DNA from: Haematococcus lacustris
Lineage: Eukaryota > Chlorophyta > Chlorophyceae > Chlamydomonadales > Haematococcaceae
Reading direction: 5' to 3'
NCBI GenBank assembly: GCA_030144725.1
Contig: JASKMD010000014.1
Coordinates: 9,194,502-9,258,501, forward strand
Length of the DNA: 64,000 bases
Of the stretch, positions 19,001-56,632 are shown one piece after another; position 1 is the stretch's first letter; each line of letters begins with the position of its first letter. The notes under the pieces are model-generated. The model had not been told where the DNA came from, searched no databases, and saw only the letters and a list, made by a program, of their open reading frames with translations. The translations under genes were made by a program, and so were the position numbers.

Positions 19001-19339
19001 CGGCCACTGCCACTGCGGCCAGACCCAGCTCCACACCCCCTGCATCCACCCCTGTGCCCAGCCAGAGTAATACCCCTGAGGAGCTCCAGCTGAGTGACAG
19101 GAGGCCACTGGGTAGTCAGGGGAGGCAGGCACTGCAGCCCTGTGGCCAGCAGGACGCTGATGATGCGCTGGTGGCGCTGCTGAAGGCCAAGCTGAGCTCC
19201 TGTATGCAGGCACTCAGGTGCGATGCCATCCTCACCACCACCAGTGCCATCATTGCCAGCAACACCACTGTTGAAGCTACCACTGTGTGGAGTCCATCAT
19301 TGCAATCGTTGCCATCACTGATGAAATCACCACTGTATG

Positions 19340-19375
<36 letters not shown>

Positions 19376-19956
19376 TATGGTGGTCATCATGCAGCACTGC
19401 TGCGAGACACACATGTGCACAGCTGTAGACTAGGCTTGCTTGGGTGTGTGTGAGGCTGCAGCTAGTGCCATGCACAGCACTCTCAACACGGTACAGGGCT
19501 GCGGCCTTATACACATGGCATCAACAGTGACCCCAGCCTGGTATGTATGTATCGCACTAAGTGGCCACGCGGTGCATGCGTATCCGCAGTGCAGCTGGCC
19601 ACAACCTTGCCCGCCCTGTCACCCTGCTGCCATACACCCTGCTGCCGCCTCTACGTCTCCGCCAGCAGCATCTGAAGTACATGGCATGTGCATGGTCAGA
19701 GGTAAACGCCACCAATGAACGCCGTTGTACACAGTGCTGCATGTCTCCACTAGACGCAGCTGAATGTTCTCAGTGCTGGGCTCCCAGGGCCAGTGCAGCT
19801 CATTGGACTGCATGAGGCAGCCAGCTGCCGGGGCTGACCGGCATGACACGACAGGGAGGGGGCTGGCCAGCAATCCTGCTATAGACCCAGTCTCCTGTGT
19901 GCATGTGTGCTTCCTGCTACAGGACTCTGGATCAGCAACTTGACGAAGATTCCTGA
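7044..19956 (+). CDS. Very large Ala/Pro/Gln/Ser-rich protein of unknown function, ~2500 residues
   Basis: Exons supported by open frame and matching codon phase: 7381-8850, 9491-10247, 10684-~10884, 11086-11342, ~12012-12152, 12590-12682, ~12956-14935, 16434-19217 and 19923-19956. The stop is at 19954-19956 after TLDQQLDEDS. The first exon (around 7044-7213) and the junctions near 10884 and 12956 are uncertain. Most of the protein is low complexity, rich in Ala, Pro, Gln, Ser and Gly. Short helical islands stand out: DPVEERIQALLARFQPA, VREALAADLDLSAVLTKLAA, two related copies IEQLLVSAERLLF and AEQLLVSLQSVQQ, and ALVALLKAKLSSCMQALR near the C-terminus. No catalytic domain, signal peptide or membrane segment is recognised. 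It could be a scaffold or regulatory protein, and more than one gene is not excluded. The 14936-16433 intron contains a transposon. Confidence 0.5.
15631..16307. mobile_element. Non-autonomous TIR transposon (MITE-like), TA target site
   Basis: 677 bp bounded by terminal inverted repeats of about 27 bp: the left end reads TACCGTAGTGTTACGCC(T)CGTTGGTGA and the right end, reverse-complemented, TACTGTAGTGATACGCC(T)TGTTGGTGA. Both ends are flanked by the dinucleotide TA (15629-15630 and 16308-16309). Subterminal copies of TTTGGTGA and CTCAAACA occur at both ends. No transposase frame is present. TA duplication and TIR form suggest mobilisation by a Tc1/mariner-type transposase. It sits in a phase-2 intron of the low-complexity gene. 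Confidence 0.8.
16308..16368. repeat. TA-rich microsatellite next to the transposon end
   Basis: ATGTATATACATGTATATA followed by an uninterrupted (TA)n run and TGTGTGTATACA. It directly adjoins the TA target site of the MITE-like element, so TA-rich sequence probably served as its target. Confidence 0.8.
19340..19375. repeat. (AGT)n trinucleotide microsatellite
   Basis: About eleven AGT units in the last intron of the low-complexity gene. In-frame translation gives a Ser run, but the conserved splice donor at 19217 places this outside the coding sequence. Confidence 0.75.
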
Positions 19957-39300: not shown

Positions 39301-39901
39301 GCCCTTGTCCTTGCACATGGAGGGGCAGTTGGGTGCAAGCCAGCTGTTAAAGTCCCCCTCGTGGTTTGCTTCAGTTGGTAGCGCACCCCTGCCCGTGCTA
39401 GAGCCAAGCAGCCCCACATGGCATGGTGCCCATGTTCATGCACCTAGCCACTGGCATTGCATGGAGTCCCAAACCCTTGGTTGGGGAGGGCAGCTAAGCA
39501 GCATGACGGCTGACGGCTTCAACGGTGTAAGCTATCGTCTTGTTCCACATGGCATGCTGCCCCTCTTGTGGGTTGTGCTCACAACCGGGGTCTGTGTAAC
39601 CCAGCCTCTACCCAAACTTCATCATCAGCACCATGCTAGTGGTCCTGGCAACAGCTCAATGAAGAGAGTGTCACGATGGTCGTGCTCGTGGTTGGGCACG
39701 TACTGTTTGCAGGTGTTGTCCACCATTCCCCATGGCGGGGACTGCATGGGCGTGGTGAAGCCCAGCCTGTCCGTGATGTTGGTGCTTCCCACCTTGGTGG
39801 CTTCCGCAGCAGTGGCTGGAGCCGCCCTCCTGTATGTTGTGCTGCCGCTGGTGTGTGGCAGCAGCCAAGCCAGCAGCAAACAACGGTTTAGGCTGAACTA
39901 G
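27439..39901 (+). CDS. Large secretory-pathway type I membrane protein of the plant At5g58100-like kind
   Basis: Exons: 27439-27840, 28221-28419, 28621-28802, 29448-29639, 30279-30475, 30676-30745, 31202-31372, 31995-32151, 32973-33091, 33834-33959, 34754-34897, 35334-35417, 35666-35854, 36241-36342, 36563-36710, 36962-37242, 37347-37390, 37727-37929, 38611-38765, 39007-39159, 39713-39901. Phases agree throughout, giving ~1168 residues; the exon 1 interior, exon 3 and the Leu-rich start of exon 5 are the weakest points. The N-terminus MGSLWARIALLALLFDCAC is a signal peptide. The last exon has a membrane helix (MLVLPTLVASAAVAGAALLY) and a short basic tail. Blocks recalled from land-plant relatives: PLSIVFVGFQGDGN, EEWFG-like QEWFGQLDHVLPHTRV, VHLNFSCNVV, YGYRQGLSRAEMD, EDCLVGNW..RWALLDLTAG and SHDLFLAELAALLSRALRHVV. 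A family role in pollen-wall formation in Arabidopsis is recalled, unverified. No enzyme motif is recognised. Confidence 0.82.
30283..30316 (+). repeat. (CTG)n repeat coding poly-Leu or non-coding
   Basis: About eleven CTG units directly after a CAG acceptor at 30278. In the frame of the following conserved exon they would encode a Leu run; if the true acceptor lies downstream, they are intronic. Confidence 0.7.
30918..30946. repeat. (TTTC)n microsatellite
   Basis: TCTCTCTTTCTTTCTTTCTT-type tract within an intron of the membrane-protein gene. Confidence 0.7.
31563..31970. repeat. Perfect hexanucleotide array (CCCCTG)68
   Basis: 408 bp made of 68 uninterrupted CCCCTG units, preceded by GC-rich variants (CCCCCG). 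It lies in the intron between exons 7 and 8 of the membrane-protein gene and ends 24 bp before the acceptor at 31994. It creates long PL-repeat and GR-repeat open frames on the two strands that are not genes. Confidence 0.98.
36349..36410. repeat. CCAGCCAACCAAC-type tetranucleotide repeat
   Basis: Degenerate (CCAA)n/(CCAG)n tract just after the exon ending at 36342, in an intron. Confidence 0.7.
38475..38585. repeat. CTGCTGCCACTA / CTGCTG repeats
   Basis: Runs of GCTGCTG and ACTGCTGCTGCC units in the intron before the exon at 38611. The matching open frames are Leu/Ala-only and are not part of the phase-consistent model. Confidence 0.65.
39472..39640 (+). mobile_element. 5'-truncated LINE 3'-end remnant in the last intron
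   Basis: 39475-39546 aligns with the last ~72 bp of the L1-like LINE at 51946-52017. Shared blocks are AGTCCC(G/A)AACCC, GGGGAGGGC, ACGGCTGACGGCTT and CGGTGTAAGC. A CATCATCAGCA stretch at 39621-39631 resembles the (ATC)n tail of the other copy. Only the terminal part is present, as expected for a truncated or decayed insertion. It lies in the same orientation as the host gene. Confidence 0.65.
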
Positions 39902-41592: not shown

Positions 41593-41730
41593 GTGCACAA
41601 CCAGCTCACTACGCTAGGTAGATGGGGCCACAGCGATGCGGCTCACCGTGCCAAGGAGACCCGTCTCGCCGATGTGATTTGTTCGCGGGCACATGTGGCA
41701 GTACGCGAGCAAAGACTCCAATGGCTAGCG
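41593..41730 (+). pseudogene. Left half of an ORF interrupted by the retrotransposon
   Basis: The frame ending ...VREQRLQWLA at the target site TGGCTAGCG continues in the same frame on the other side of the element (55521 onward: WLALMVRLRGLNRQCQCDKR...). Removing the element and one duplication copy leaves an uninterrupted basic reading frame across the insertion point. The product is unknown. It may be an exon of a host gene or of an older transposon. Confidence 0.35.
41721..41730. repeat. Target-site duplication of the large retrotransposon, 3' side
   Basis: ATGGCTAGCG, identical to 55521-55530. It abuts the (CTT)n 3' tail of the element directly. Confidence 0.85.
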
Positions 41731-41746
41731 AAGAAGAAGAAGAAGA
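41731..41746 (-). repeat. (CTT)n 3' tail of the retrotransposon
   Basis: Reads (CTT)5 on the element strand immediately before the target-site duplication. Such microsatellite tails replace poly(A) in several non-LTR clades. Confidence 0.75.
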
Positions 41747-41840
41747 CTACTCCGGTATTCACCGGCGTGCATTAAGGGAGGAGCTACCGCCTGGGGCGCG
41801 GCCTGCTCCCACCGATCAAGCCAAAGAAGAGGCGACCCCC

Positions 41841-44800
41841 CTACCCTCCTTCCCTATTAGTAGCCCTGAGTCTGTAGCTTGTCTTTGCAATGGAGTGGGC
41901 TGTCTCCACCGCGTGTCTTGTTAACTTGTGTAGAAGTTTAGTAGTGTTACCTTGTGAGACCCCCAAGGCCAGGAGGTGTTGCCGTGTGTGTGCTTCATAC
42001 GTTATGCCCCCTATGCCCAGGAGGATTGGTATAATCTCCACCATGTGGTCTTCCTTGCGTATGGTTTGAGCTAGATGGGTGTGTTGGTTGAGTGCCTTGT
42101 CCAGTTGATCCGTCCACCTTGAGTCCGAGCAGTACTTGATTTCTATGATAATGACCCGTTTGATGGCTTTGCCACGTTTGCCCGTCTTCATTGTTGGTAT
42201 AACCATGAGAATGTCTGGTCTGGTGGTGTTTTTGGTTGCTGCTGTCTTCAGTCCGAGTGCTCGAAGTGTTGTGTGTAGTGTGTCGTTAGGGAGGTCCAGG
42301 TCTTCTTTTGCGCCCTTCTCCCAGCTGCCGGTGTCCGCGAAGCTGATGTAGCCGCCTAGGGTACCCTTGCTTATGGCTTTAGCGATGAGGCGACCGGCCC
42401 CGTTATGCCTTTCTTGCACCATCGGTAGTGTCTCGCTGCAGCCCGAGAGGAGGTGAGTGGCACTGTCGGCTTCCCCGCACAGTGGGCACCGGTCGTCGGT
42501 CGCCCGTTTCCAGCGCATGGCCAGCTTTTGGTTATAGAGTCCGCCGGTACGGTAGAGAAGGGCAGATCGTTGCGCGGGTATGGAGATGTTCGTGTCGGTC
42601 ATCACCCTTGCGCCTGCTCCTGTCGCCGCGGCTTTGGTGATCTCCAGGGACATCTGGTAGTAGATACTGTCTTGATTGGCGAGACCGAGGCTGTGCTTGC
42701 GGTGCATGTGTGCTCGCACGCTTTGGCGGCAATCCGGCAATGGGGCGGGGGATTCGCCGTTGGCTTCGTTGCTGAGCCAGGTGTTGGTTTCTTTCCGTGT
42801 GGTCGGGCGGTAGGCTGGGGTGTTGGCAAGCTCTGGGTGTAATGCCGCGTGCTTGGCGAGGGCATCGGCGCCTTCGTTGCCGATAATTCCCGAGTGGGCC
42901 CGGACTTTGTAGAAGTGGATCGTGACGGGGCTATCGATGATGAGGGTAGCGATAGCGGTCAGGATGTCGTTGTGCCTGTGTGTGATGAGCGACATCGGGT
43001 TAGCGAGGGCTCGGCGGATCTGGTAGATAGAGCAGAGGCTGTCGGTGGCGATGCGTTTGGCCCCCGCTGTGAGTGCCGCGTGTATCGCCGTGAGTTCCGC
43101 CTTGTTGATGGTGTTGCTTTCTGGGTCGTCTAGGGTGACGGTGATGAGGACGTTGGTCTCCGGGATGTAGACCCCCGCCCCGACGCTCGCTGGGGCTGCC
43201 CCCGAGGTCTTAATGCAGCTGCCGTCCGTGTACGCGAGCGTGGCCCATTCGGTGATGGCCATCCGTGGTTGTGTCGTGGAGTGTTGCGTGAGCTGTTGGT
43301 GGCTGCGTTGGTGCCCCGCGGTGGGGAGGTCCTTGTCCAACGGCAAGCGCATGTGTTGTTTGTGGCCGCTGGGGGGTGTGGCCGGCTGGCATTGATTCGT
43401 TGGTCTCTTGTGGATTGGGTGTGTGTCTCGTTGAGGGTGGAGGGCAGTGGCAGTGCTAGCCAGCCATCCTTGGGGGTTGCCTTTTGTGACGAGTTGTTGT
43501 CCCGCTGCATTCCAGATGACGTAGATGTGGAGCTTGGCGTGCTTGCCTGGCTTGGAGCAGGTGGTCTTGGTGGGGGGTATGCTGGCCAGGTGCTGGCAGT
43601 ATTCTGGGTAGCGTCTTAGGGTGTCAATGTGTTTGGGGTAGGAGATGCCCTTTTTCCCAGGGATCAGCATGATGGTGGCCATGGCCTCCTCCTGGGTAGC
43701 TGAGTGTATAGCATGGTTGACGCATTTGAGTGCCACCGCATCGTCTGCCGGTACGTTCCATGTGGATAGCCCAGTGTGGCGTACCAGTAGGCAGTTGTGG
43801 TGTGCACCGAAGGCCGTGTCATTGATGTCAGGGCTCCAGTAGGTAGTGGTTTCCGGTCTAACTGTGAGTGGATCAGCCCACCTTTGGACGGTACTTGGAA
43901 AGCTTCGTGTGGTGTGTAGCGTGGCAAGGGCTTTGTCTTGTGCCGCTCTCATGGGGTGGTGGTTGCTCTGTGTGTCATGTCTCCTTAGGAGGGCCACCAG
44001 TTCTGTGGCCAGGTTGCGTGTGTGTTGTAGCCAAGCGTGTAGGTGTTGGTGTTGTTGTTTTGTCAGTAGGCCTGCTGTGCGGCCCGTCTCGTCGTGGACC
44101 GTTACATGTTGCACTAGGTCGTGCTTTGGCATGATGGGCTCCCCCGTGCGAAGGCTCATCGCGGGGGTGGTCAAGTGCGGGTGCAGTTGGAGGAAGGTTT
44201 CGCATTTGCCCGTTCCAACGATGTCCGTCTGCGGGTTAATGGGGTACGTGTGGAAGGTGGCCTTCGAGTGCAGGTTGGTGCACCGGGGTAGCCAGGTGTG
44301 CGGGTCCGGTAGTCCTTGCCGGGTGTGGTCCGGCAGGTTCGCGTCAGGCCTCGCATGTCTGGCCTCTTGTATCGTCCTGTTTTCCTCGTCGTAGATGTTA
44401 CGCTTAGCCGTGTAGTCCAGGTGTGCCGTGATGAGCGGTGCCGGTTCAAGGGTGGGGCGCCAGTGTACTCGTATGAGGTCCGAGTGCGCTGACTGACGCA
44501 TGGTAGTCTTGAAGTCATTGCTGCCAAACTTGCATATGGGGCACAGCCAGTAGCCTGGTTCCTTGTGTCCCGACAGGAGGGTTTGCTCGAGGCAGGCTGG
44601 GTGGTAGGCCCTCTTGCAGTTGTGGCACGTGGGGCAGTCGCCTCTTGGTAGCCAGCATAGCTCACAAGTGCATACATCTTTAGCCTCTTCCCTACTGATG
44701 GTCTCTATGTGTGTGGGTGTATAGCCTTCTTTAGCACATAGGTGTAATGCCCACCGTTCTATGACTGTAGGTTTCCAGTGCACCTTGTAGTAGCTTTCCT

Positions 44801-47800
44801 TATTAATGCCGTCCCATTGCCAACCGTCTATGTTGGTGATGACCTCCTGGTGGTCGTACATGGCCCCTAGTATGTGCCCTAGGTCCGTGAGCTTGCACCG
44901 GCAGGCTTTGTCCACCTTCCAGCTTGAGAGCCCCGGGAGGTCAAGGCCTGGTATGCGCACGATGTCCGCCGGGATTGTGTGGACATGTCTACCGTCCTTG
45001 TGCCGTTTAGCGCCCGCTTTGGGTCGAGTGGGCTCCGTTGGGTGCGAGGATGTTGCTCGTTGCTCTCGTTGCAGCAACCGTGAGCGCGCCCTAATGGCGT
45101 CGGGGGCTGCGGCCGCTGCTGCCCGTTCCGTCATGTCTGGTTGCGCTGCGTGCGTGGCCGCGTACGCTTTCATATCCATATAGCGGTTTCTGGTGTCTGG
45201 CGCGGCGGGTGTGGGCGCAAGTTCCGTGAGACCCGCGGCCCAGGGTGTGATTCTGCGTTGGTCGGGCGGTAGGGTGAGTGATGTGTTGCGGCTGTCCCGG
45301 ATGGTGCGCGTTGCGGTCGCGTCAGGGCATGAGGGCTGGGCCGCCATGGCCGCGAGTTTGTTGAGGGCGATGATGTGTTTCTGCTTGACCTTTTTTCCGT
45401 ACTTCGATGTGAGCATGCTACCCGTGATGATGTGTGTGTTGCCCTCGCAGCTGAGCTCAGATGCGTGAGTGATGCCTAGGCTTTTGAGGCAGGTGATGCT
45501 GGCGCTGACGACATCGTGTGCATTAGAACTGCTGGCTTGTGTGATGAGGCGGCCTAGTGTTTGGCATTCCTTGGGGTAGAGGGGTAGTCCCCCTTCCGTG
45601 GCTGACAGCCCGGCTAGTGAGGTGTAGACTAGTTGCCTTGCCCTGAGGGTATGGTGGAAGAGGGTGAGCATGCGGTGTCCTTGAATGTTAGCCTGGGTAC
45701 TGAGCCATGTGATTTGTTTATGCAACATGCTCCTCGAGATGTGGGCGTGCGTCACATCTGTGGACTGGAGGCTGTGTGTGAGGGCTGTCGTGTTGCGAGC
45801 GTGATATTCCTGGGCTGTGGAGCTGATGCCCATGCCTAGTTTCCCGGCGTCTTCTCTGACGATGGCGTTGGGCGTTCCCAGGGGGAGTCTGAGTTTAAGC
45901 TTAACGCATTGATTGATGGACCTGTCATACAGCTCAAGGTCCCCTGGGGTGCAGGGCACGGCGCAGAAGCTGTAGGCTAGGCTGGGTATGATGGCCGTGC
46001 GGATGATGTGTATGGCCTGTCTAGCACTAGCGAAAGAACGTCTGAGTCTCTCTAGTTTGTGGCGGAGTTTGGGAATCATAGCGGTGTGTTGTGGTTTCCA
46101 GTCCAGCGTCATGGTGATGAGCACTCCCAGGTAGGTGAAGGGTGAGGTCGGGCGGTGGTACGTGACGGGTTTTCCTTGTAGGCTGACGGTTTGGAGTTGT
46201 TGGCGGGCCCGCTTGTCCGCTTCGGCCGCGTTGCTGCACATGCCAGTTTCGACCGAGTGGTGAAGCGCCGCGGTTGCGAGGGTTTTACTGTGTGAGATGA
46301 TGAGGTGACCCCAGTCCGAGAAGGCTGAGAGTTTGTCCGCTTGGCATCGGAGGTTGCGAAGGGTGTTGCAAAGTATAGCGATGTCATCTGCATAGTCGAT
46401 GCTGCTGACGGTGGCGCGTTCCCCGCTGTCGGCTGTTGCTGATTTGAAGTTGTAGCCCCTCGCGCCCACTTGCAGCCATCGCAGGAGGGGTTCGATATAG
46501 ATGAGGAACAGGAAGGGTGAGAGTGAGTCGCCCTGGATAGTGCCCCGGTCTACGGGTACCGGGTCGGTGGGGCCGTAGGGAGTTCTGAAGCGCGTTGTAG
46601 CGCCCGTGTATAGGTCCTTCACTGCGTCAGTCGCGTCCGTGGGGAAGCCTAGATCGTGCATGATCCATAGTAGTTTGTCCTGGCAGGTGGTGTTGAACGC
46701 ACTGGTGAAGTCGACCAGGAGCGCGTAGATATCTGCCTTGGCCAGTTTAGCATCCTCAAGGGCCATGACGAGCATCTGCAGCTGTTGTGTGGTGTCCCTG
46801 TGGGAGCGGAACCCAGCCTGGTTCTTGCTGAGCATCCCATTAGCCTCAGCATACTCAGACAGTGTCTTGGTAATGAGGCTGGTCCACAGCTTATAAACGG
46901 TGTTGGCGAGGCCCACTGGCCTGTAGGAGTTAAGGTCCGTTTCTTGCCCCTTATCCTTGTAGAGCAGGCATGTGTCACTGATTTTCCACGTGGTGGGTGT
47001 GCAACCTGTTGCCCACATGATGATGAAGAGCTGATGGATGGTGTCCCTCATCTCCCACGGCAGCATCTTGATGATCTCGTTCTCAATGCCGTCTGGTCCT
47101 GGGGCTTTGCCCCCGGAGAGCCTACTGAGGCATTCCTGGAAGCTTGCCTTGTCCATGATGGCTGTGTGTAGCCAATGTACGTTTTGGCAGGTGTGCATCG
47201 TGAAAGGGTCGTCCGCTTTGGCGCGGGCCCACGGGTAGTTTCTTGTCTGCGTGTTTGTGTAGTTGCCCGTTTTGGGGGTCGGCGGCGCCAGCTTCGTTCC
47301 ATAGGCCTCGGTAATTATCCGGTTCAGGTCGGCCGGGGCCGTGCATATCTTGTTGGCGATGGGGTCGGCTAGCGCCTGCAGGTCTTTGTGATCAGTGCGG
47401 GATGGGCGTAGGATGTATTTGTTCGCTTTCTTAGGCTGGGTGCTTATTAGTTGTCGCATTCTGACACGGGCTTGTGCGATGGCGAGAGCGGAGTCGTCGT
47501 CGTCTAGCTTGTGAATTTGGTCGCGGTACGAGTTGGTCAGCCGGGCGAGCGCGGCCTGCACGTGGTTTTCGGTTGTGTCGTCGCCCTGGCGCGCTTGCAC
47601 CGCCTCCCTTGTTTCCGCATTTGTCGTATCTGTCTCTGGGATAAGTTCATCGATGGTTGGGTGCACGTTGTTTTGCTTGAAAAACACTCTAGCCTTCCGG
47701 CTGAGTTCTCTGGTGGTTTTGAGCTTCTTGCCTAGTGCCTCTCTAATCCTACACATGGTCCTGCGTTGGTAGTGTTGGCCTCCCCTGGTTAGGGTCTTAG

Positions 47801-49740
47801 TGTTGCATGTCTGCATGGCAGTTCTCCTGCAGGTTTGCAGTAGGGTTGTGAGCATGGTAGCTGCGGTGTCTACAGCTTCCCTGGCTGGGATGCCTGCCAC
47901 CAGCGTTAGGCGATGTGGTTGTTGGGGGTTGGCCTTGTCGATAGTGGTCAGGAAGTGGATAGCATCCGTGTACATGGGAGCAAGGTATGCTGTCAGGTGT
48001 GCATGCAGTTGTGGGGCACCTGAGCTGGGTTGTTGCACTGCTAGGCGGTAGGCTTCCCTGTCCTTATTGGTGATGGGGGTGGTAAGGATGGTGTGGCTGT
48101 GCTTCTGAGGCTTTTGTGGGGCTGCCAGGTCTATGCCCAGTCGGGTTGTACTCAGTGTGGCGGTGAGTGGTCTGTGGTCGCTAAGATATGCGTGTGTGTC
48201 GACGTGCGTGCGGTGCTCAGGGCCGTGTCTTGCGTCGCGCGTCAGAATGGCGTCGATGCGGCTGTTGCAGTGTGGTTGTTGGTAGGTCCAGGCCCGGTCG
48301 CCGGGATCAGCTTCGGACAGGCTCATCTCTGTGGCGAACTCCCTCATCATGTTGTCTTGTGTGTATTCAGTGTGTTCGGAGCGATCCTCTGTTTTCATCG
48401 TGGCGTTGATATCTCCCGCCAGGATGAGTGAGCCGGGCAGGTGCCCAGTGGCTGTTCGTATATGCTCTTGCATCTTCCTCCGTAATGGGAGCGCGTCGTC
48501 GTTGTTCCCCGAGGGCCAGTACGTGGCAACGAGTGTGAGCTCTTCGCTTTGCCGTTGGCGGAGGCTCAGGATGACGCAGCGGGTGTTTACATCCGCATCT
48601 GTGCACGGTTGTATCATGGTAGCTTGCATCTGGATGGCTAGATCATGTCTGATGCCAATGAGGACTTCGCTGTGGCCTTGGTGGCGGTGGACAGTATAGT
48701 TGGGCAGAACCCTCTTCAGCCAGCCAGAGTTGTTGCTCCTGGGTTGGGTCATGGTTTCAGTAAGGATCAGTATGTCCGGGCTTTGGCTGTGCACAAGGTT
48801 TAGAACTTCGTTTCTAGATCTGTGTAGGCCTCTGACGTTGAATGTTGTGAGGGTGATGTGTTGCCGGTTGGGGGTGGGTGGCGGTGGGGGGCTGTGATGT
48901 TGGTTCGTACCAAGGTCGATGTCGGGCGTGGGTTTAGGTGTCTCGTCTATGGTGGAGACTGGCCCAGTGTTGTGGGTCTCAGCGGTGGGTTTGCAGAGAT
49001 ATTTGAACATGAGGGTTTGAGTGTGTGTGTCGTTACCGTGTCTCTTGGTGACTCGAACGCGCTTTTTGGCAGCGTCGGTGGCGTTGTCGAGGGGCGTAGT
49101 GGGTCGATGGATACGTGTTGTTTGCGGACGGAGAGTGACCGTGGGTGTGTCCCGGCGCTGTCGCAGCCGGGTAGGCTCGTCGTGTGGGGGGATGCCCTCT
49201 GCTGTCGCCCTGCGTGTGCTATCGGTTGTGCAGCTGGTCTCGGCGGTAGTGGTGGTCTCGTGCAAGGGGCCGGGGGTCTCTCTTGCCTCTGTGTGGTCTG
49301 TGGTAAGATCTATCGGGTCCAGATGATCTCGGAAGTGTTCTGCTACCGCCGATGGTGTAGCGGCCTCCAGCGGGTCCGCTATCCAGATTTCCCTCCTAAT
49401 GAATCTTGTGTGTCTCACATTGCCCGTGCAGATGGTGAGCAGGTTGCCTTGGAGGCTGCCCCAGTCGTCAGGTGTGGAGAGTGGTTTGGGCATGCGATGG
49501 AATGAGTCCAGCTGGTGCCACCCTTGTTGCGTGTGCTTAATGGTTGTAGCGTGTTGGTAGGATAGCAGGATGACAGCATCGTTGCATGTGGCGCCCGTAC
49601 TTGCAATAGCGGCTGTGATCACCTCGGGGGTGATGCTCTGGATGGGCAGGTAGGTTGAGGCAGGGTGCAGGTACGTGTGTAGCTCTTGGTGTTTGCGGTA
49701 GAGGTAGTGGTTCAGTGTATCAGATGAGAACTTACCATTC
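41841..49740 (-). CDS. Retrotransposon polyprotein, 3' part: APE endonuclease, RT, PHD-like finger, RNase H, restriction-like endonuclease
   Basis: About 2630 uninterrupted codons to the stop at 41841. APE/EEP domain (~48860-48140): TLTTFNVRGL, LILTETM, LAGDIN, SRIDAIL and SDHRPL, all catalytic blocks present. RT (~47130-46250): GGKAPGPDGI, YRPVGLANTVYKL, LVDFTSAFNT, GTIQGDSLSPFLFLIYI, and the catalytic SIDYADDIAIL near 46400. PHD-like C4HC3 finger (~44680-44530): CELC, CHNCKRAYHPAC, CPIC. RNase H (~43245-42850): YTDGSC, KAELTAIHAAL, ATDSLCSI, VRAHSGIIGNEGADALAKH. C-terminus: CPLC-x7-H-x4-C (~42490-42430), the spacing of the CCHC motif preceding R2-type nucleases, then RPDILMVIP and IIIEIKYC (42228-42125), matching the PD...(D/E)xK core. 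Upstream the frame enters the duplicated target of the nested LINE without a stop, so its real start is at 55427. Confidence 0.9.
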
Positions 49741-49870
49741 GCATGGTAGATATGCTCAGTTTTGAAGGTGCGTACGGTGTTCCCTATGTCTCGTGCTGCT
49801 TGTGCAAGGTGTTGTAGGTGCTCTGCTAGTTGCTTGCAGTGGTTGATGACTGCATGGTAATCTATGCATT
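49741..49870. repeat. 130-bp target duplication of the nested LINE, left copy
   Basis: Matches 52024-52153 at 129 of 130 positions (A at 49860 against G at 52143). It is part of the retrotransposon coding sequence. The L1-like insertion lies exactly between the two copies. Confidence 0.93.
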
Positions 49871-51984
49871 ATGCATGGAGAGGCAGACCTCACTCTGTCC
49901 CTGCCCCTGCCCCTGTCACAACACATGCACCTACCTATGAGCTGCCCCATTTTGACAACATCACATCCATTGTTCAAGCACAACTTCGTGAACTCAACAA
50001 TGACACAGCACCTGGCCTGGATGGGGTCCCAGCCCCCTTCATCAAGCACGCCCGCACAGTTGAGGAGGGTGTTACCACATACTTGTTGCTCCCTCTGCTT
50101 GCCACATGGTTTCACAGCATGATGCGCACAGGGAATATCCCTGCGGCTTGGAAGGTAGCTAGGATCAGCCCCCTCTTCAAGGACACAGACCCCACAGACC
50201 CCAACAAGTACAGAATGCTTGCTGTGAGTAGTGTGTTGTACCGCCTGTATGCTAACGTCTTGCGGCACGTGCTGACTGCCTGGTGCATGACACACAAAGT
50301 GCTGCCAGCTGAGCAGTTTGGGTTCATCCCGGGACGCAGCACCATGCAACCCATGTTCATTCTGCGCCATCTTGTCCACGCTCAAAAGGCTAGCGCAGAT
50401 GCCAAGCACCGCAAGCTTTACACTGCCTTCATTGACTTCAAACAGGCCTATGACCACATACCTTGACAACAATTGTGGGAGCACTTACGGGTTGGGGTCA
50501 AGCTGCCACAGCCCTTGCTTGCCTGCCTGGAGGGTCTGTATAGGGATGATAGCTATGTGCTGATAGATGGCCCCCACCGCACCCCCCCAGTGGTTCCGGA
50601 CCAAGGTGTCAAGCAAGGCTGCCCCATCAGCCCACTCCTGTTTGCTCTCTATGTTCACGACATTAGTAAGGAGTTCCTGGGTCCTGTTGATGCTGTGAGG
50701 GTGCAAGGCACACCTGTCACCCACTTCATGTATGCTGATGACCTGACCCTGGTGAGCACCTCGCCCCACGGGCTGCAGCGGCTGGTCTGCCAGCTTCAAG
50801 GCTTTGCAGACAGGAAACACCTTACAGTCAATGTGGGCAAGTCAAAGGTGATGGTCTTCAATGGCAACTCACAAACAGCAGCACCTAGCATTCGGTACAA
50901 GCATGAGATCCTGCCTGTGGTGAGAGAGTTCAAGTACTTAGGCATGCACTTCAACCCCAGCGCCACCCCTGCTTTTGCTGCCACTCATATGAGGGCTGGC
51001 ATGTTCCTCGCCATGCGCCAGGCGTGCAAGCGTGCTAGAGAGTATGGGGTCCTGCATGATCCCTATGCCCTGTGTCACCTCATTAGAGCGTTTGTGCTCC
51101 CCTTAGGGCTGTATGGCAGCCAGGTATGGGGCACTGCCTTCCTTGGGCACGGTATGCAGCTCTCCAACCCAGTGCAAACACGCATGCTCAGCTTTCTCAG
51201 GTTTGCTGCCAGGGTACGTGGCTCAGTGTCAGGCCTGATGGTGCTGCATGAGTTGGGGCAGCTGCCCCTCCAACTTTACTGGCTTAGGGCTGCATGCAAG
51301 TTCTGGAACACTGCCAAACTATCCCACAGTGACCTGCTAATGAGGGTCATCAAGGCAGATGTGGAGTTAGGCAGGGGTTGCCAGGCCAGCTGGAGTGCTC
51401 AGTTCCAGCTTGCCGCCAGAGAGCTGATGGGGGGTGAGTTCACCTTGAGCCCGGACATGGTCCTAGGCACCAAGGCTATGGAAGTGAAGTGGCTCGAGAG
51501 GTGGGGGAGGCGTTGGGTTGGGTTTGAGGGAGACCCTAGATTGCCTGAGACGGTGCATCGGGAGAGATGTTCGTATGCTGCATGGTTCAAGCATGGGGAC
51601 GGCATTGGCATCAATCACATGGCACCACACCTGCTTAACAGACAGCTATCTACAGAAGTTCGCACGAGCTTGACTAGGTTCAGGTTAGGCAACAGCGGTC
51701 TGGGGGTGGAGAAGGCTCGGTTTGAGGGGGTAACTTTCATTGATCGCACATGCACCAGATGCACAGAGGGGGTAGTGGATGACGCCATGCATTTCATCTT
51801 TGAGTGCACTGCCACGAGTTCCATCAGGGAGCAGCCGGAGTTTGCCATGACTTTACAGAACAATAATGAGAATTTGCATGACTTCATGTTGAGCCCATGT
51901 GCACCTTTGTTTGTGCACCTTGCTTTGAAGTGCGTTACAGAAAGTCCCGAACCCCTAGAGGGGGAGGGCGGCCTAGTAGCCTAA
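49871..51984 (+). pseudogene. L1-like reverse transcriptase, 5'-truncated, one in-frame stop
   Basis: One frame from the truncation point to the stop at 51984, broken only by TGA at 50464-50466. RT blocks: NDTAPGLDGVPAPFIKH, YRMLAVSSVLYRLYA, EQFGFIPGRSTMQP, FIDFKQAYDHIP just before the stop, then GVKQGCPISPLLFALYVHDI, THFMYADDLTLVS (catalytic YADD at about 50730), VNVGKSKVMVFN. The C-terminus has CTRC-x8-H-x4-C (CTRCTEGVVDDAMHFIFEC), the zinc motif usual after LINE RTs. The stop lies where an Arg codon CGA would become TGA by one transition. The endonuclease and first ORF are absent. Relatives are the L1-type LINEs of green algae. Confidence 0.9.
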
Positions 51985-52023
51985 CGGCTGACGGCTTAAG
52001 CGGTGTAAGCCACATCATCATCA
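49871..52023 (+). mobile_element. 5'-truncated L1-like LINE nested in the large retrotransposon
   Basis: 2153 bp, opposite in orientation to its host. The 5' end is cut within the region upstream of the RT core. The 3' end is a short untranslated region with GAACCCCTAGAGGGGGAGGG and GGCTGACGGCTTAAGCGG, finishing in (ATC)n. The long flanking duplication shows target-primed insertion. An older relative of the same 3' end is at 39475-39546, so the family is dispersed in this genome. Confidence 0.9.
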
Positions 52024-55000
52024 GCATGGTAGATATGCTCAGTTTTGAAGGTGCGTACGGTGTTCCCTATGTCTCGTGCTGCTTGTGCAAGGTGTTGTAG
52101 GTGCTCTGCTAGTTGCTTGCAGTGGTTGATGACTGCATGGTAGTCTATGCATTTCTTTCCCATGGCCATGTTGAAAGCATGCACTAGGCAACACTCTTCG
52201 TATTGCCTTTCCATGTAGGGATGAGCTAGGTTCTGGGCTGTAACTTTGTGGGGGGTGGGTTCGACGGCTGTGGTGTTGCGATTGTGGGTGCTTGTATGTT
52301 CCTCGTGGCTAATGATGTTGTGGATGCCTTTTTCTTCGCACAGGCGTATCTGCTCCCGTGAGCGGGTGTTGGGCGTGATGACAAAGAGCTGGTGCATAGT
52401 CCGCTTGGCTGCAGCAGGGATGAGCGAGATGGGCGTCGGTGTTGATTTCATGGAGTCCAGTAGGTGCCATGTGCCGTCTTTGCATGTCATGGCCATGCTG
52501 TGGCCTGGCCTTCTGCACAGAAATGTGTGTGTGCCGTACTGGCAGGCGAGGTTCCTAAGGTTGTTAGCAGTCCAATCATTGGGTTGGTTGAGTTGGGCAA
52601 TGCTTTGTACTGCTAGGCCATAGTGGACCCGCAAGTACATCTCGATGACTTCGTCCGAGTAGCCGCCAGCGCCTCTTGCCATCAGCCACGCGCCGCGTTC
52701 GGAGAAATCTGTTAGTTGGAGGAGCCTACTGTCGTAAAAGTGGTCAATGTCATGCATGGTGACCCATTCGTGGCCTGCAGCGTTATTCAGGGAGTAGATC
52801 TGACACGCGGAGCTGTGCCGGGCCTGTTGATAATGCTCGTTGATTGGGCCAGGGTTGGCTTCGACATCCCCAGCGGCTAGCAGGAGCCAGGCCAGGTAGA
52901 CCGCCCGGGCGGCAGATAGGGGGTCCACAGTGCACGGTGTATTTTCTGTTTTATTCCTATTCGCTGCAACCTGGTAGGTGCAGTAGACATGCAGGGTGCT
53001 ATTGAACTGATTGACTGTGAAAGGGTGGCTGCTGTTGGCGCCGTGTGTGGAGAGGTGAAACCTGTTGGCCAGCTTGCAGAGGGCACAAGAGGCTGCTTGA
53101 GTGCCGTCTATCCCTATCATGAGGTTGTAACATGTGGTTCTAACCGTCGCTCTGATACGGCTAAGTAGTTTCTTGTGCTTCTTAAGGCAACGTTTGGAAT
53201 CCTTTCTTGTTGGCTTAAGGGGGTGATTCATGCGTTGATAGATAGTGGTAAGCAAGTGTGTGCATATCACAGTGAGCATGAGCATGTTCATCAGTTTCTC
53301 TTGTTGTCTTATGATTATCCCGATATGTGTGGGCTGTGGTTGGTGGTGAGGAGGATATGGTTGTTGGTGGGTGTCTTGCATGTCGGCATGTGTAGCTAGC
53401 ATATCCGTGTCATACGGCTGGTCATGCCGACCTACAGCGGTCAGGGCTGGCAGGTGGTGGTGGGGCTGATCAACATAACGCTTGTCAGCCTGCATGACTG
53501 CATGTGTAGCTGACATCCCTGTGTCGTACGGTTGGTCATGCCAACCTGCAGCGGTCAGGGTTGGCAGGTGGTGGTGGTGGGGCTGAGCAGCATGTCGCTT
53601 GTCAGCCTGCATGACAGCATGTGTAGCTGGCATCTCTGTGTCGTACGGCTGGTCATGCCAACCTGCGGCAGTCAGGGCTGGCAGGTGGTGGTGGGGCTGA
53701 CCAACATAACGCTTGTCAGCCTGCATGACAGCATGTGTAGCTGGCATCTCTGTGTCGTACGGCTGGTCATGCCCACCTGCGGCAGTCAGGGCTGGCAGGT
53801 GGTGGTGGGGCTGATCAACATAGCGCTTGTCAGCCTGCATGACAGCATGTGTAGCTGGCATCTCTGTGTCGTACGGCTGGTCATGCCGACCTACAGCGGT
53901 CAGGGCTGGCAGGTGGTGGTGGGGCTGAGCAGCATAGCGCTTGTCAGCCTGCATGACAGCATGTGTAGCTGGCATCTCTGTGTCGTACGGCTGGTCATGC
54001 CAACCTGCAAAGGTCAGGGCTGGCAGGTGGTGGTGGGGCTGAGCAGCATGTCGCTTGTCAGCCTGCATGACAGCATGTGTAGCTGGCATCTCTGTGTCGT
54101 ACGGCTGGTCATGCCAACCTGCAAGAGTCAGGGCTGGCAGGTGGTGGTGGGGCTGATCAACATAACGCTTGTCAGCCTGCATGACAGCATGTGTAGCTGG
54201 CATCTCTGTGTCGTACGGCTGGTCGTGCCAACCTGCAGCGGTCAAGGCTGGCAGGTGGTGGTGGGGCTGAGCAGGATAGCGCTTGTCAGCCTGCATGACA
54301 GCATGTGTAGCTGGCATCTCTGTGTCGTATGGCTGGTCGTGCCAACCTGCAGCGGTCAGGGCTGGCAGGTGGTGGTGGGGCTGAGCAGCATAGCGCTTGT
54401 CAGCCTGCATGACAGCATGTGTAGCTGGCATCTCTGTGTCGTACGGCTGGTCATGCCAACCTGCAAGAGTCAGGGCTGGCAGGTGGTGGTGGGGCTGATC
54501 AACATAACGCTTGTCAGCCTGCATGACAGCATGTGTAGCTGGCATCTCTGTGTCGTACGGCTGGTCGTGCCAACCTGCAGCGGTCAGGGCTAGCAGGTGG
54601 TGGTGGGGCTGAGCAGGATAGCGCTTGTCAGCCTGCATGACAACATGTGTAGCTGGCATCTCAGTGTCGTATGGCTGGTCCTGCCCACCTGCAGCGGTCA
54701 AGGCTGGCAGGTGGTGGTGGTGGGGCTGAGCGGCATGTAGCTTGTCAGCCTGCATGTCAGCGTGTGTGGTTTGCAGCGCAGTGTTGGCTGGCTGGTCATA
54801 CCAGGCTGCAGCAGCAAGGGCTGGCAGGTGGTGGTAAGGCAGAGCGCCATGTCTTATGTTGTGCCTGGCTGTGGCAGCAAGGACGGTAGGGTGGTGTTCA
54901 TCCTTCATTCTATTGTGTATAGCATGTAATTCTGTGTCAGGCGGCTGGATGTGCCTGCTTGTAGTAGCCAGGGCTGGTAGTTGGAGTGCACCACGTCGTA

Positions 55001-55427
55001 TGACGGGGCTTGTATGTGGCAGATTGCTGTTGGGAAAGTCCCAGGTGTAGTGGCCCAGGGCCGCAGGTTGGTACCTAGCCAACGCTCTTCCCCTTAATGG
55101 TGCCTCTAGATAGGCGTGTGTCGGCGGGGTGTTCCCATCTGCGTGTTTGCATATAGTTGTCGGGGGTGTCCCACAGGGTGCGGTCAACGTCGGGGGTTTC
55201 CCTTCCATTTGTTTCGTAGGGGGTTTCCCTTCTTTGTGCTTCGTAGGGGGTTTCCCATCGTGCAGGCCGCCAATGGTGCAAGCGGCTGGGTAGGTTAGAC
55301 AAATGCATATGCAGAGCACGAACGCGTTGCGTAGCAGGGATTTCTTACTTGGTAGGTAGCTAGCCGCGCGCTGTAGGAGTCCGATGTTACCAGGTGTCTC
55401 CGCGCTGGACGTCTCATTTTGCTCCAT
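51996..55427 (-). CDS. Retrotransposon polyprotein, 5' part: His-rich repeats, 2A motif, cysteine-protease-like domain
   Basis: Starts at ATG 55427 (MEQNETSSAETPGN; the frame is open further upstream but only with TTG). Contents: a hydrophobic helix (RNAFVLCICICLTYPAAC), three GKPPTK-type repeats, then about 13 tandem 38-residue units with QPHHHLPALT and GWHDQPYDTEMPATH. A basic segment and a hydrophobic stretch follow, ending LLLAAGDVEANPGP (2A-like). After this comes a domain with SSACQIYSLNNAAG, GHSMAMTCKDGTWHLLDSM: Cys, His and Asp arranged as in Josephin/OTU-like papain-fold proteases. The frame leaves the element at the duplication (52024) and stops at 51996 inside the nested LINE. Before that insertion it continued in frame into the endonuclease-RT part. 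Gag-like RNA binding is likely in the N-terminal part but unproven. Confidence 0.85.
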   Translation of the reverse strand: MEQNETSSAETPGNIGLLQRAASYLPSKKSLLRNAFVLCICICLTYPAACTIGGLHDGKPPTKHKEGKPPTKQMEGKPPTLTAPCGTPPTTICKHADGNTPPTHAYLEAPLRGRALARYQPAALGHYTWDFPNSNLPHTSPVIRRGALQLPALATTSRHIQPPDTELHAIHNRMKDEHHPTVLAATARHNIRHGALPYHHLPALAAAAWYDQPANTALQTTHADMQADKLHAAQPHHHHLPALTAAGGQDQPYDTEMPATHVVMQADKRYPAQPHHHLLALTAAGWHDQPYDTEMPATHAVMQADKRYVDQPHHHLPALTLAGWHDQPYDTEMPATHAVMQADKRYAAQPHHHLPALTAAGWHDQPYDTEMPATHAVMQADKRYPAQPHHHLPALTAAGWHDQPYDTEMPATHAVMQADKRYVDQPHHHLPALTLAGWHDQPYDTEMPATHAVMQADKRHAAQPHHHLPALTFAGWHDQPYDTEMPATHAVMQADKRYAAQPHHHLPALTAVGRHDQPYDTEMPATHAVMQADKRYVDQPHHHLPALTAAGGHDQPYDTEMPATHAVMQADKRYVGQPHHHLPALTAAGWHDQPYDTEMPATHAVMQADKRHAAQPHHHHLPTLTAAGWHDQPYDTGMSATHAVMQADKRYVDQPHHHLPALTAVGRHDQPYDTDMLATHADMQDTHQQPYPPHHQPQPTHIGIIIRQQEKLMNMLMLTVICTHLLTTIYQRMNHPLKPTRKDSKRCLKKHKKLLSRIRATVRTTCYNLMIGIDGTQAASCALCKLANRFHLSTHGANSSHPFTVNQFNSTLHVYCTYQVAANRNKTENTPCTVDPLSAARAVYLAWLLLAAGDVEANPGPINEHYQQARHSSACQIYSLNNAAGHEWVTMHDIDHFYDSRLLQLTDFSERGAWLMARGAGGYSDEVIEMYLRVHYGLAVQSIAQLNQPNDWTANNLRNLACQYGTHTFLCRRPGHSMAMTCKDGTWHLLDSMKSTPTPISLIPAAAKRTMHQLFVITPNTRSREQIRLCEEKGIHNIISHEEHTSTHNRNTTAVEPTPHKVTAQNLAHPYMERQYEECCLVHAFNMAMGKKCIDYHAVINHCKQLAEHLQHLAQAARDIGNTVRTFKTEHIYHADDDVAYTA
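52024..52153. repeat. 130-bp target duplication of the nested LINE, right copy
   Basis: Second copy of 49741-49870. It follows directly after the (ATC)n end of the LINE. Confidence 0.93.
52845..52871 (-). other. 2A-like ribosome-skipping motif
   Basis: Encodes GDVEANPGP, fitting the 2A consensus D(V/I)ExNPGP, preceded by the hydrophobic AVYLAWLLLAA typical of working 2A peptides. In known cases the ribosome fails to join the last Gly-Pro and releases the upstream protein. Here this would separate the His-rich N-terminal protein from the protease-nuclease-RT part. Confidence 0.88.
53395..54790 (-). repeat. 114-bp tandem repeats encoding 38-residue His-rich units
   Basis: About 13 copies with a period of 114 bp (a few of 117). 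Each carries, on the plus strand, CAGGTGGTGGTGGGGCTGA and CTGTGTCGTACGGCTGGTC. In the coding frame each unit has a QPHHH cluster and GW/GRHDQPYDTEMPATHAVMQADKR. Units differ by few substitutions, all keeping the frame. Confidence 0.92.
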
Positions 55428-55520
55428 TTCACGTGCTGGTGCTAGTGGCGTTGTTGGTTTCCTCTGCGGGCTTCGCGTTCGTGCTCTGTACTTCGTCGAT
55501 TTTTGCAAACCGAAAAAGTC

Positions 55521-55530
55521 ATGGCTAGCG
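55521..55530. repeat. Target-site duplication of the large retrotransposon, 5' side
   Basis: ATGGCTAGCG, the partner of 41721-41730. The matching stretch ends on both sides exactly at the element limits. Confidence 0.85.
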
Positions 55531-55603
55531 CTGATGGTCAGATTACGCGGACTAAACCGCCAATGCCAATGTGATAAACGCTATCGAAAACAGTGCGGTA
55601 TTG

Positions 55604-56632
55604 ACAGTGCTTTTCCAATGCGTGGGAGTTGGGAGCTGGGAGCTGCATGGCACTTTTTTGCATGGAGGCGTGGGAGCGGGAGCTGGGAGCTGGGAGCTCG
55701 AGCCAAAAACGGTGCATGCTGTCTCCATGCGGCTCCTCCGCGCTCCCGTTTCCAATGCTTGGAGATGGGAGCTAGGCATGCAGCCCCCATGTCCTGCGCA
55801 TGTTCTCCCAAAAGGGCCTCCTGGCTCCAATGGATTCCATGCTGGGAGCCCAATGGAGCCAGGCGCGGAGGACATGGGGCGCTTGGGAGCTGCATTTCAA
55901 ATTTAATTTTTGTGCGAGCTCTGCTCTGCTATGCTCTGCGCTGCGCTACGCGCCTGTGCCCCGTATCGGTTCACTGGCAACATCGCTGAGGAGACATCGG
56001 CCCTCCTCCGCAGTTCTATCGCAACCTCAACATTGCGGAGCAACCTTCAGCTTCTTCAGCTTAGCTGACCGCTAGTGTGCAGTCCTGCGTGCCTGCTGTG
56101 CTTTAGTGCAAGTTGCTGCTTGCCTTCACCTGCTGTGCTTTGCTTTGCCCGCTTGCTTTGCCCGCGTTGCGGAGAATGTTTAGCTAGTCCCGCTTGCGCG
56201 GCTGGTACAGCTGACTTGCTTCGCTCCGCTAAAGCGGAGATTAGCTTAGCTTGCCGTGCACATCTACTACTTGCTACTCTGGTTGCTACGCTGCTTGCTA
56301 CTTGCTACTCTGCTTGCCACCTTCATCCTCGCCACCACCCCAGCTAACGGGAAAAGAGCGAACTTGTTGTCACCAAACCTGTAGTCCTGCAAACTGCAGC
56401 CACCTGCTCGAAGCAGAGTTGCACCACAACCTGCAATAGGCAGAGATCATAGCCTTGCAAAGCACCAGCCCACCAAGAGTTGTGTTGCAAACTTGTAAAA
56501 ATGCAGCCAAAAGGGTCCATGCAGCTCCAAGCTCCCAGTTTTTGCGCGATGGAAACACCATTTCGGTGCATGGGCCCATGCGGCTCCGCTCCCAGCTCCC
56601 ACCTCCCATGCAGCCTATTGGAAAAGCACTGT
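55604..56632. repeat. Inverted-repeat element with GGGAGCT-rich arms
   Basis: The ends are inverted copies of ACAGTGCTTTTCCAAT. Each arm continues into GGGAGCTGGGAGC-rich sequence containing GCATGG and AAAAAC blocks. It is about 1.03 kb with no protein family visible. It could be a non-autonomous DNA transposon, but no target duplication was found. Confidence 0.55.

Follow-up and report, generated by a model that had tools for sequence, protein, structure and literature searches.

Organization of the element

The window, a 64,000-nucleotide stretch of the 308-Mb genome of the green alga Haematococcus lacustris (G000:C40:9194502-9258501), holds on its minus strand a whole Dualen-like retrotransposon of the type without long terminal repeats (non-LTR) at positions 41730..55520, including an insert nested within it. 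The element was delimited by a target-site duplication of 9-10 bp, a (TTC)n 3' end and open frames. Its modules follow the order hydrophobic stretch with 38-residue repeats, 2A motif, Josephin-like domains 1 and 2, apurinic/apyrimidinic endonuclease (APE), reverse transcriptase (RT), PHD-like finger, PCIF1-like domain, RNase H, CCHC knuckle and restriction-like endonuclease (RLE). APE and RLE occur together, as in Dualen/RandI, and RNase H is also shared with that group (E 4.6e-15). We consider it probable that this is a Dualen/RandI-like element of H. lacustris with the life cycle proposed below.

The 5' end of the element lies at 55519/55520 and the 3' end, (TTC)5, at 41730. These ends are flanked by 9-bp direct repeats ATGGCTAGC at 41721-41729 and 55521-55529. 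When extended by one base, the 3'-side duplication AATGGCTAGC (41720..41729) and the 5'-side duplication CATGGCTAGC (55520..55529) match at 9 of 10 positions. The 3' end (41730..41765, minus strand) consists of a CCGGT-GAAT-ACCGG inverted repeat at 41752-41765, followed by (TTC)5 at 41730-41744, and the same type of end with a variable TTC number was found in other copies. The TTC end and direct repeats bear out the limits given in the initial annotation (41731..55520) to within a base or two.

A minus-strand frame at 49868..41841 is stop-free for 2675 codons, compared with a longest stop-free run of 373 codons in 200 mononucleotide shuffles. A second minus-strand frame of 1194 codons (55580..51996) is the upstream part of the same coding region, and the two frames are halves of a single coding region parted by a plus-strand fragment of a long interspersed nuclear element (LINE). 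Coding had been taken to span 41841-49740, which has to be corrected, as it continues upstream of 49740 into the frame 55580..51996. The description of the element as complete fits the family, but not this copy, which is interrupted by the nested LINE. Because this second LINE inserted, the copy is unable to make an intact polyprotein. The unsplit arrangement is seen in the related model P0061 (3632 aa), where 2A, two Josephin matches, APE, RT, PHD, PCIF1-like domain, RNase H and RLE with RPD and EIK stand in one chain.

The nested fragment (49871..52023, plus strand) is a 5'-truncated LINE foreign to the host element. It is flanked by a 130-bp duplication (49741-49870 and 52024-52153, 129/130 identical), which places a copy of one host-element protein segment on either side of it, and it sits inside the second Josephin-like domain. 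Its RT is in two pieces with a stop between them, both matched by PF00078. The 130-bp target-site duplication of this insertion (49741-52153) is unusually long, and the 3' tail is short and of CATCATCATCA type. A 3' end similar to that of the nested LINE (77%) was also found at 39454-39532.

Two endonucleases, reverse transcriptase and RNase H

The domains described in this section lie on the minus strand, in the 2675-codon frame. The APE-type endonuclease (48174..48845) was matched by PF03372 with E 1.5e-12 at residues 342-565 and aligns to the L1 endonuclease. The RT with its YADD motif and flanking region (45609..47231) was matched by PF00078 with E 7.6e-25 at residues 979-1249. Its nearest solved structure was R2Tg (9nl3; E 3e-25, 92 bits), and the best L1 entry reached 49 bits. 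RNase H with its D-E-D-D residues (42843..43241) was matched by PF00075 with E 4.6e-15 at residues 2210-2342. The profile searches of the translation proposed in the initial annotation matched the endonuclease/exonuclease/phosphatase, RT and RNase H families in Pfam, and the motifs listed there (TFNVRGL, GDINAT, SDHRPL, YADD, RNase H D-E-D-D, RPD and EIK) are present in the sequence.

Downstream of RNase H lie a CX2CX7HX4C knuckle (42438..42488) and the RLE with its PD...ExK residues (41844..42413). The knuckle was aligned with that of R2. It is invariant in 15 aligned sequences, the window copy and 14 relatives, and so are RH, PD and ExK. If the RPD/EIK tail were not a nuclease, the element would be an ordinary APE-type LINE, and APE is indeed the only nuclease family that Pfam matched in the window copy. 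We give this explanation very little credence. The structural comparison set beforehand as the check on this tail predicts a domain that folds like the RLE of R2, which is also its closest solved RLE, and the clear RLE fold led us to rule out an APE LINE with a false nuclease tail. Pfam, alignment and fold together uphold the claim that APE and a restriction-like nuclease are present in one element. The fold comparison lists cover the top 1000 Foldseek chains, so that a family missing from them may still be similar.

PHD finger and PCIF1-like domain

The PHD-like finger (44523..44678, minus strand) lies between RT and RNase H. All eight C4HC3 ligands are present, as had been noted for this finger. 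The PF00628 match at residues 1735-1779 (E 0.032) scored 14.7 bits, below the curated cut-off of 24 bits, which was exceeded in the relative P0102. That the finger steers integration to particular chromatin is a guess.

The domain beside it (43443..44285, minus strand), overlooked in the initial annotation, is predicted to have the core fold of the PCIF1 methyltransferase over ~210 residues, without the NPPF catalytic motif. It was found in 74 of 76 non-Haematococcus relatives. NPP[FYW] occurred in none of 148 domain rows; the position was readable in 51 of 54 and 68 of 73 rows. WNVPADD or a close variant stands there in the Haematococcus rows and NPEY in a minority of relatives (12 rows and 7 more), and P0144 and P0158 read HPPF and VPPF, respectively. 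No invariant column was found at this motif in the alignment. FGA and SPLN motifs, common with PCIF1, are kept in many rows. Outside the domain matches, NPP[FYW] was seen in seven Haematococcus models.

Of 30 fetched copies, 23 were used to measure selection as dN/dS (L009 is the window copy itself; L010, L016, L018, L019, L024 and L033 were dropped as truncated). These copies share history, so that the 23 are not independent, and L017 and L022 contain two stops and one stop, respectively. The ratio was higher in the short linker 2143-2205, at up to 1.16. The PCIF1-like domain is under persisting purifying selection despite the lost NPPF. This methyltransferase-like domain looks chemically crippled, yet it shows signs of still being needed.

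The domain could instead methylate adenine at N6 by means of a divergent motif (NPEY etc.), with the element's own capped RNA or insertion-site DNA as substrate. NPEY retains the Asn, the first Pro and an aromatic residue, HPPF and VPPF occur in one relative each, and the FGA and SPLN motifs persist in many rows. Against this stand the count of zero for NPP[FYW], the Haematococcus WNVPADD and the lack of an invariant column at the motif. We therefore regard methylation as distinctly unlikely, and it was dropped as the leading reading because the domain has no NPP[FYW]. Since NPPF is gone while purifying selection persists, the most likely role of the PHD-PCIF1-like module is not methylation but binding to chromatin and to capped RNA or the transcription apparatus.

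A more specific history is tentative and, on balance, doubtful: the clade may have captured a PCIF1-type cap methyltransferase once, paired it with PHD and kept it as a reader, with the dead pocket binding the 5' cap region of its own transcript (or Pol II chromatin). If true, such a reader would couple cDNA synthesis to open promoters and to RNA that is full-length, capped and self-encoded, and would give the element an inbuilt means of cis-preference and of completing the 5' end.

N-terminal protein, 2A motif and Josephin-like domains

The initial annotation had also proposed extra N-terminal modules, which were found to be a 2A motif and two Josephin-like domains, all on the minus strand. 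The likely start of the N-terminal protein is the first in-frame ATG after the 5' end (MEQNETS..., 55407..55427). It is followed by a hydrophobic segment (55260..55340; 19-residue Kyte-Doolittle mean 2.04 at P0002 residue 86) and a tandem repeat of 114 bp, or 38 residues, in 12.7 in-frame copies (53377..54835, Tandem Repeats Finder). The repeat units are rich in His, Pro, Gln and Ala, and hydrophobic segments lie on either side of them (P0002 residues ~86 and ~763).

The putative 2A ribosome-skipping motif LLLAAGDVEANPGP (52845..52886) matches D[VI]ExNPGP and is preceded by a suitable upstream stretch; no match arose in 2000 residue shuffles. The motif was found in 32 of 88 Haematococcus rows and in P0086 (twice), P0092, P0145 and P0157 among the other relatives, and it lies upstream of APE in all 36 rows that carry one. 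The two motifs of P0086 are 66 residues apart, both upstream of APE, and would release a short third peptide.

Josephin-like cysteine-protease domain 1 (52401..52814) has the C, H and D residues, and its PF02099 match (E 3.7e-4) is below the cut-off. Domain 2 is cut by the nested insert into an N-terminal part with the catalytic-type Cys (52024..52199) and a C-terminal part with His and Asp (49419..49868; PF02099 E 1.3e-3, also below the cut-off). A profile of seven Josephin-like pieces, two of which begin after the Cys, matched Josephin-2 (6pgv; E 1.1e-7, spanning C, H and D) and ataxin-3 (3.2e-4), and six of the seven members matched Pfam Josephin at E ≤0.01. The Cys-His-Asn/Asp catalytic set of the Josephin fold is present by this profile match, with single-copy Pfam scores below the cut-off. 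The family profile matched two Josephin-like domains in 28 of 88 Haematococcus rows and in 7 of the 76 non-Haematococcus rows. The relatives P0092 and P0156 carry a Ulp1-type protease (PF02902), which suggests exchange of the protease module.

Relatives and phylogeny

The best protein matches to the RT region of the element were H. lacustris protein models, at 98% identity. Relatives were drawn from three match lists (the best 120 of 218, 81, and the best 120 of 232), and the tallies cover 76 non-Haematococcus relatives and 88 Haematococcus models. The family profiles were built from P0001 and its own matches, so that the tallies lean towards the query. Among the 76 relatives, RT was matched in 76, the PCIF1-like domain in 74, RNase H and RLE in 70 each, APE in 60 and PHD in 59. 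The APE and RLE profiles were both matched in 54, and all six modules in 41. By the loose spacing pattern, which gives rough counts, PD...ExK together with APE was seen in 48 of 76. A combined full-module filter was passed by 11 Haematococcus models, one of them (P0004) wrongly or doubtfully: it lacks the EIKYC string at its end, though the loose PD...ExK pattern passes it.

The Haematococcus rows are NCBI gene models, in which misjoins are possible, and several of them fuse the element with LTR-element domains (Pfam). Such fusions, and the nested second element in the window itself, could be taken to mean that neighbouring elements were joined by chance into the multi-domain frame of a single assembly. 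The probability of this is negligible: in P0061 a single chain carries the modules, including an RLE with RPD and EIK, and the fusion was ruled out since not one of the 74 relatives tested, which come from other sources, had its modules out of order.

In the RT tree of 28 rows, the 23 clade rows form one group (100/99), and three R2 rows (97/92) and human L1 fall outside it. Human L1 and the nested LINE form long branches, and their joining is possibly false. The element had been annotated as a member or sister of Dualen/RandI. It does belong to a clade of two-endonuclease elements, with its RT apart from R2 and L1, and fits Dualen/RandI by architecture; the tree covers the clade, R2, human L1 and the nested LINE.

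Genomic copies and target-site duplications

At least 40 3' ends at ≥95% identity, including that of the window, were scored from 1889 first-look candidates. Most forward-oriented loci end at their 3' side in a (TTC)n of variable length, beyond which the flanks are unlike. At the other end, 620 bp of the 5' end are common to two other loci at 100% (rounded), and three other 5' ends begin ACTTTTTCGG. Several copies are 5'-truncated. Of the 20 stretches fetched by distance, 19 had no window-like 5' end and in the twentieth the match was confined to the repeat region, probably because 5' truncation or upstream differences are common among the copies. L020 and L021 share 10.6 kb at 99%.

Both junctions were examined in 11 copies (window, L010/L067, L011/L066, L012, L016, L018, L023/L065, L024, L029, L030 and L033), with the junctions of L065, L066 and L067 read by eye. 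Pairing of 5' and 3' ends assumes that they belong to the same copy, which matching repeats back for L010 and L011, not for L023. The duplications of full-length copies matched at 9/10 (window), 10/10 (L011 with L066) and 9/10 positions (L010 with L067). In truncated copies they measured 12 nt with an 8-nt filler (L012) and up to 15 nt (L030), part of which is perhaps TTC tail. L018 showed 6 nt overlapping the junction, and five other copies had no duplication at the junction. By chance, at least 9 shared bases occurred in 7 of 2000 random 20 by 20 windows and at least 12 in 1 of 600 windows of 40 by 20; the stretches compared for copies were longer than these control windows. No target motif shared by the flanks of the five clear duplications was seen by eye, these being too few for a test.

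L010/L067 (G000:C127:2039606 and 2060897) is inserted in the RLE region of another family copy, with its ends 21 kb apart, and is apparently itself interrupted. The apparent truncation of L010 is best read as the edge of this insert, with L067 as its 5' end.

Just outside the 5' end of the window element, imperfect inverted repeats rich in GGGAGCTGGGAGC were found at 55612-56612. Outside the element, six long open frames of the window had no Pfam match above the cut-off; plus-strand open frames of 549 to 1049 codons at 7275-8924, 9010-10683, 12801-14999 and 16279-19428 had none at E 0.001.

Proposed life cycle

The modules, their order and folds, the duplications, the selection and the variable 3' tail were computed here, and from them we infer every biochemical activity and the strand assignment of the nucleases. 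One capped transcript would be translated as a single frame. A ribosome skip at 2A would free the N-terminal protein, with its hydrophobic segment and 38-residue repeats, from a polyprotein of ~2,900 residues, which the Josephin-like cysteine proteases may process or strip of ubiquitin. APE and the R2-type RLE together would produce a staggered cut of ~10 bp. RT would then use the nick to begin copying the RNA (target-primed reverse transcription) at its 3' end, a (TTC)n of variable length, and the template would be removed by RNase H. The conserved central module of PHD and PCIF1-like domain would serve in binding to chromatin and to capped RNA or the transcription apparatus.

Several observations count against assigning this element and life cycle. 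A clear duplication was found in only 5 of the 11 two-junction copies, and its length ranged from 9 to 15 bp. Among the non-Haematococcus relatives, 62 of 76 show the PD...ExK spacing, as do 44 of the 88 Haematococcus models. In the window copy, the Pfam scores of PHD and of both Josephin domains fall short of the cut-offs, and 2A occurs in only 4 of the 76 non-Haematococcus proteins, though many rows are possibly cut short. Membership in the Dualen clade was assigned by architecture.

It has long been asked how LINE proteins choose full-length RNA of their own and how the work is divided between APE and RLE. Both questions can be approached directly in a clade with the two nucleases and a selected, catalytically altered cap-methyltransferase fold.

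Comparison with known systems

Like L1 and other APE-type LINEs, the window element has APE upstream of RT and a target-site duplication. L1 is not known to have an RLE, and APE is its only known endonuclease; the RLE of the window element sets it apart from L1. With R2 it shares an RLE with a CCHC linker, and the closest solved RT and RLE are those of R2. R2 inserts in 28S rDNA with RLE as its sole known endonuclease, and is not known to carry APE or RNase H. The window element has both, and its copies have unlike flanks, which sets it apart from R2.

The likeness to the cap-adenosine N6-methyltransferase PCIF1/CAPAM comprises the fold over ~210 residues and the SPLN and FG motifs. Unlike in PCIF1, NPPF is replaced and a PHD finger adjoins; the match starts at about PCIF1 residue 416-421, and the upstream part of PCIF1 was unmatched by the model. 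Among the matches listed, no literature title on PCIF1 with transposons or retrotransposons concerned a PCIF1-like domain in such an element, and none on Josephin with non-LTR retrotransposons concerned a Josephin-bearing element; from titles we cannot say that the PHD-PCIF1, Josephin and 2A modules are unreported.

2A needs upstream context besides the motif and is known in non-LTR elements, namely L1Tc of trypanosomes and sea urchin and other animal elements (PMC4981915). The window element resembles these in placing D[VI]ExNPGP between protein modules and differs in having APE and RLE, compared with the APE type named in a title cited there. If active, its 2A would extend ribosome skipping beyond elements with APE alone.

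Two DNA-cutting enzymes in one retrotransposon are a known but rare design. Haematococcus and the core-Reinhardtinia are green algae belonging to one order. Kojima and Fujiwara reportedly described in 2005 a Chlamydomonas Dualen with APE, RLE, RT, RNase H and a cysteine protease. Three further sources state that Dualen (RandI) encodes both APE and a PD-(D/E)XK nuclease (PMC3636483), that it has APE and RLE as well as RNase H (PMC4640811), and that every core-Reinhardtinia species surveyed has Dualen LINEs, which also form part of the centromeric repeats of Chlamydomonas (PMC8226300). We consider it unlikely that the element represents a sister of Dualen, or a clade of its own in which the two-endonuclease design arose independently, and should carry its own name. 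This alternative would account for an RT clade distinct from R2 and L1, and the passages cited here do not mention PHD, the PCIF1-like domain, the Josephin pair or 2A for Dualen. On the other side, the reported Dualen set comprises cysteine protease, APE, RT, RNase H and RLE in a single element, and Dualen was reported throughout the core-Reinhardtinia of one study, which share the order of Haematococcus. We favour a Dualen/RandI-like element. Compared with Dualen by description, it likewise unites APE and RLE, has RNase H, resides in a green alga and carries a putative cysteine protease (here with the Josephin-like C, H and D, and perhaps of a different family), while the PHD-PCIF1-like module, 2A and the two Josephin-like domains may set it apart.

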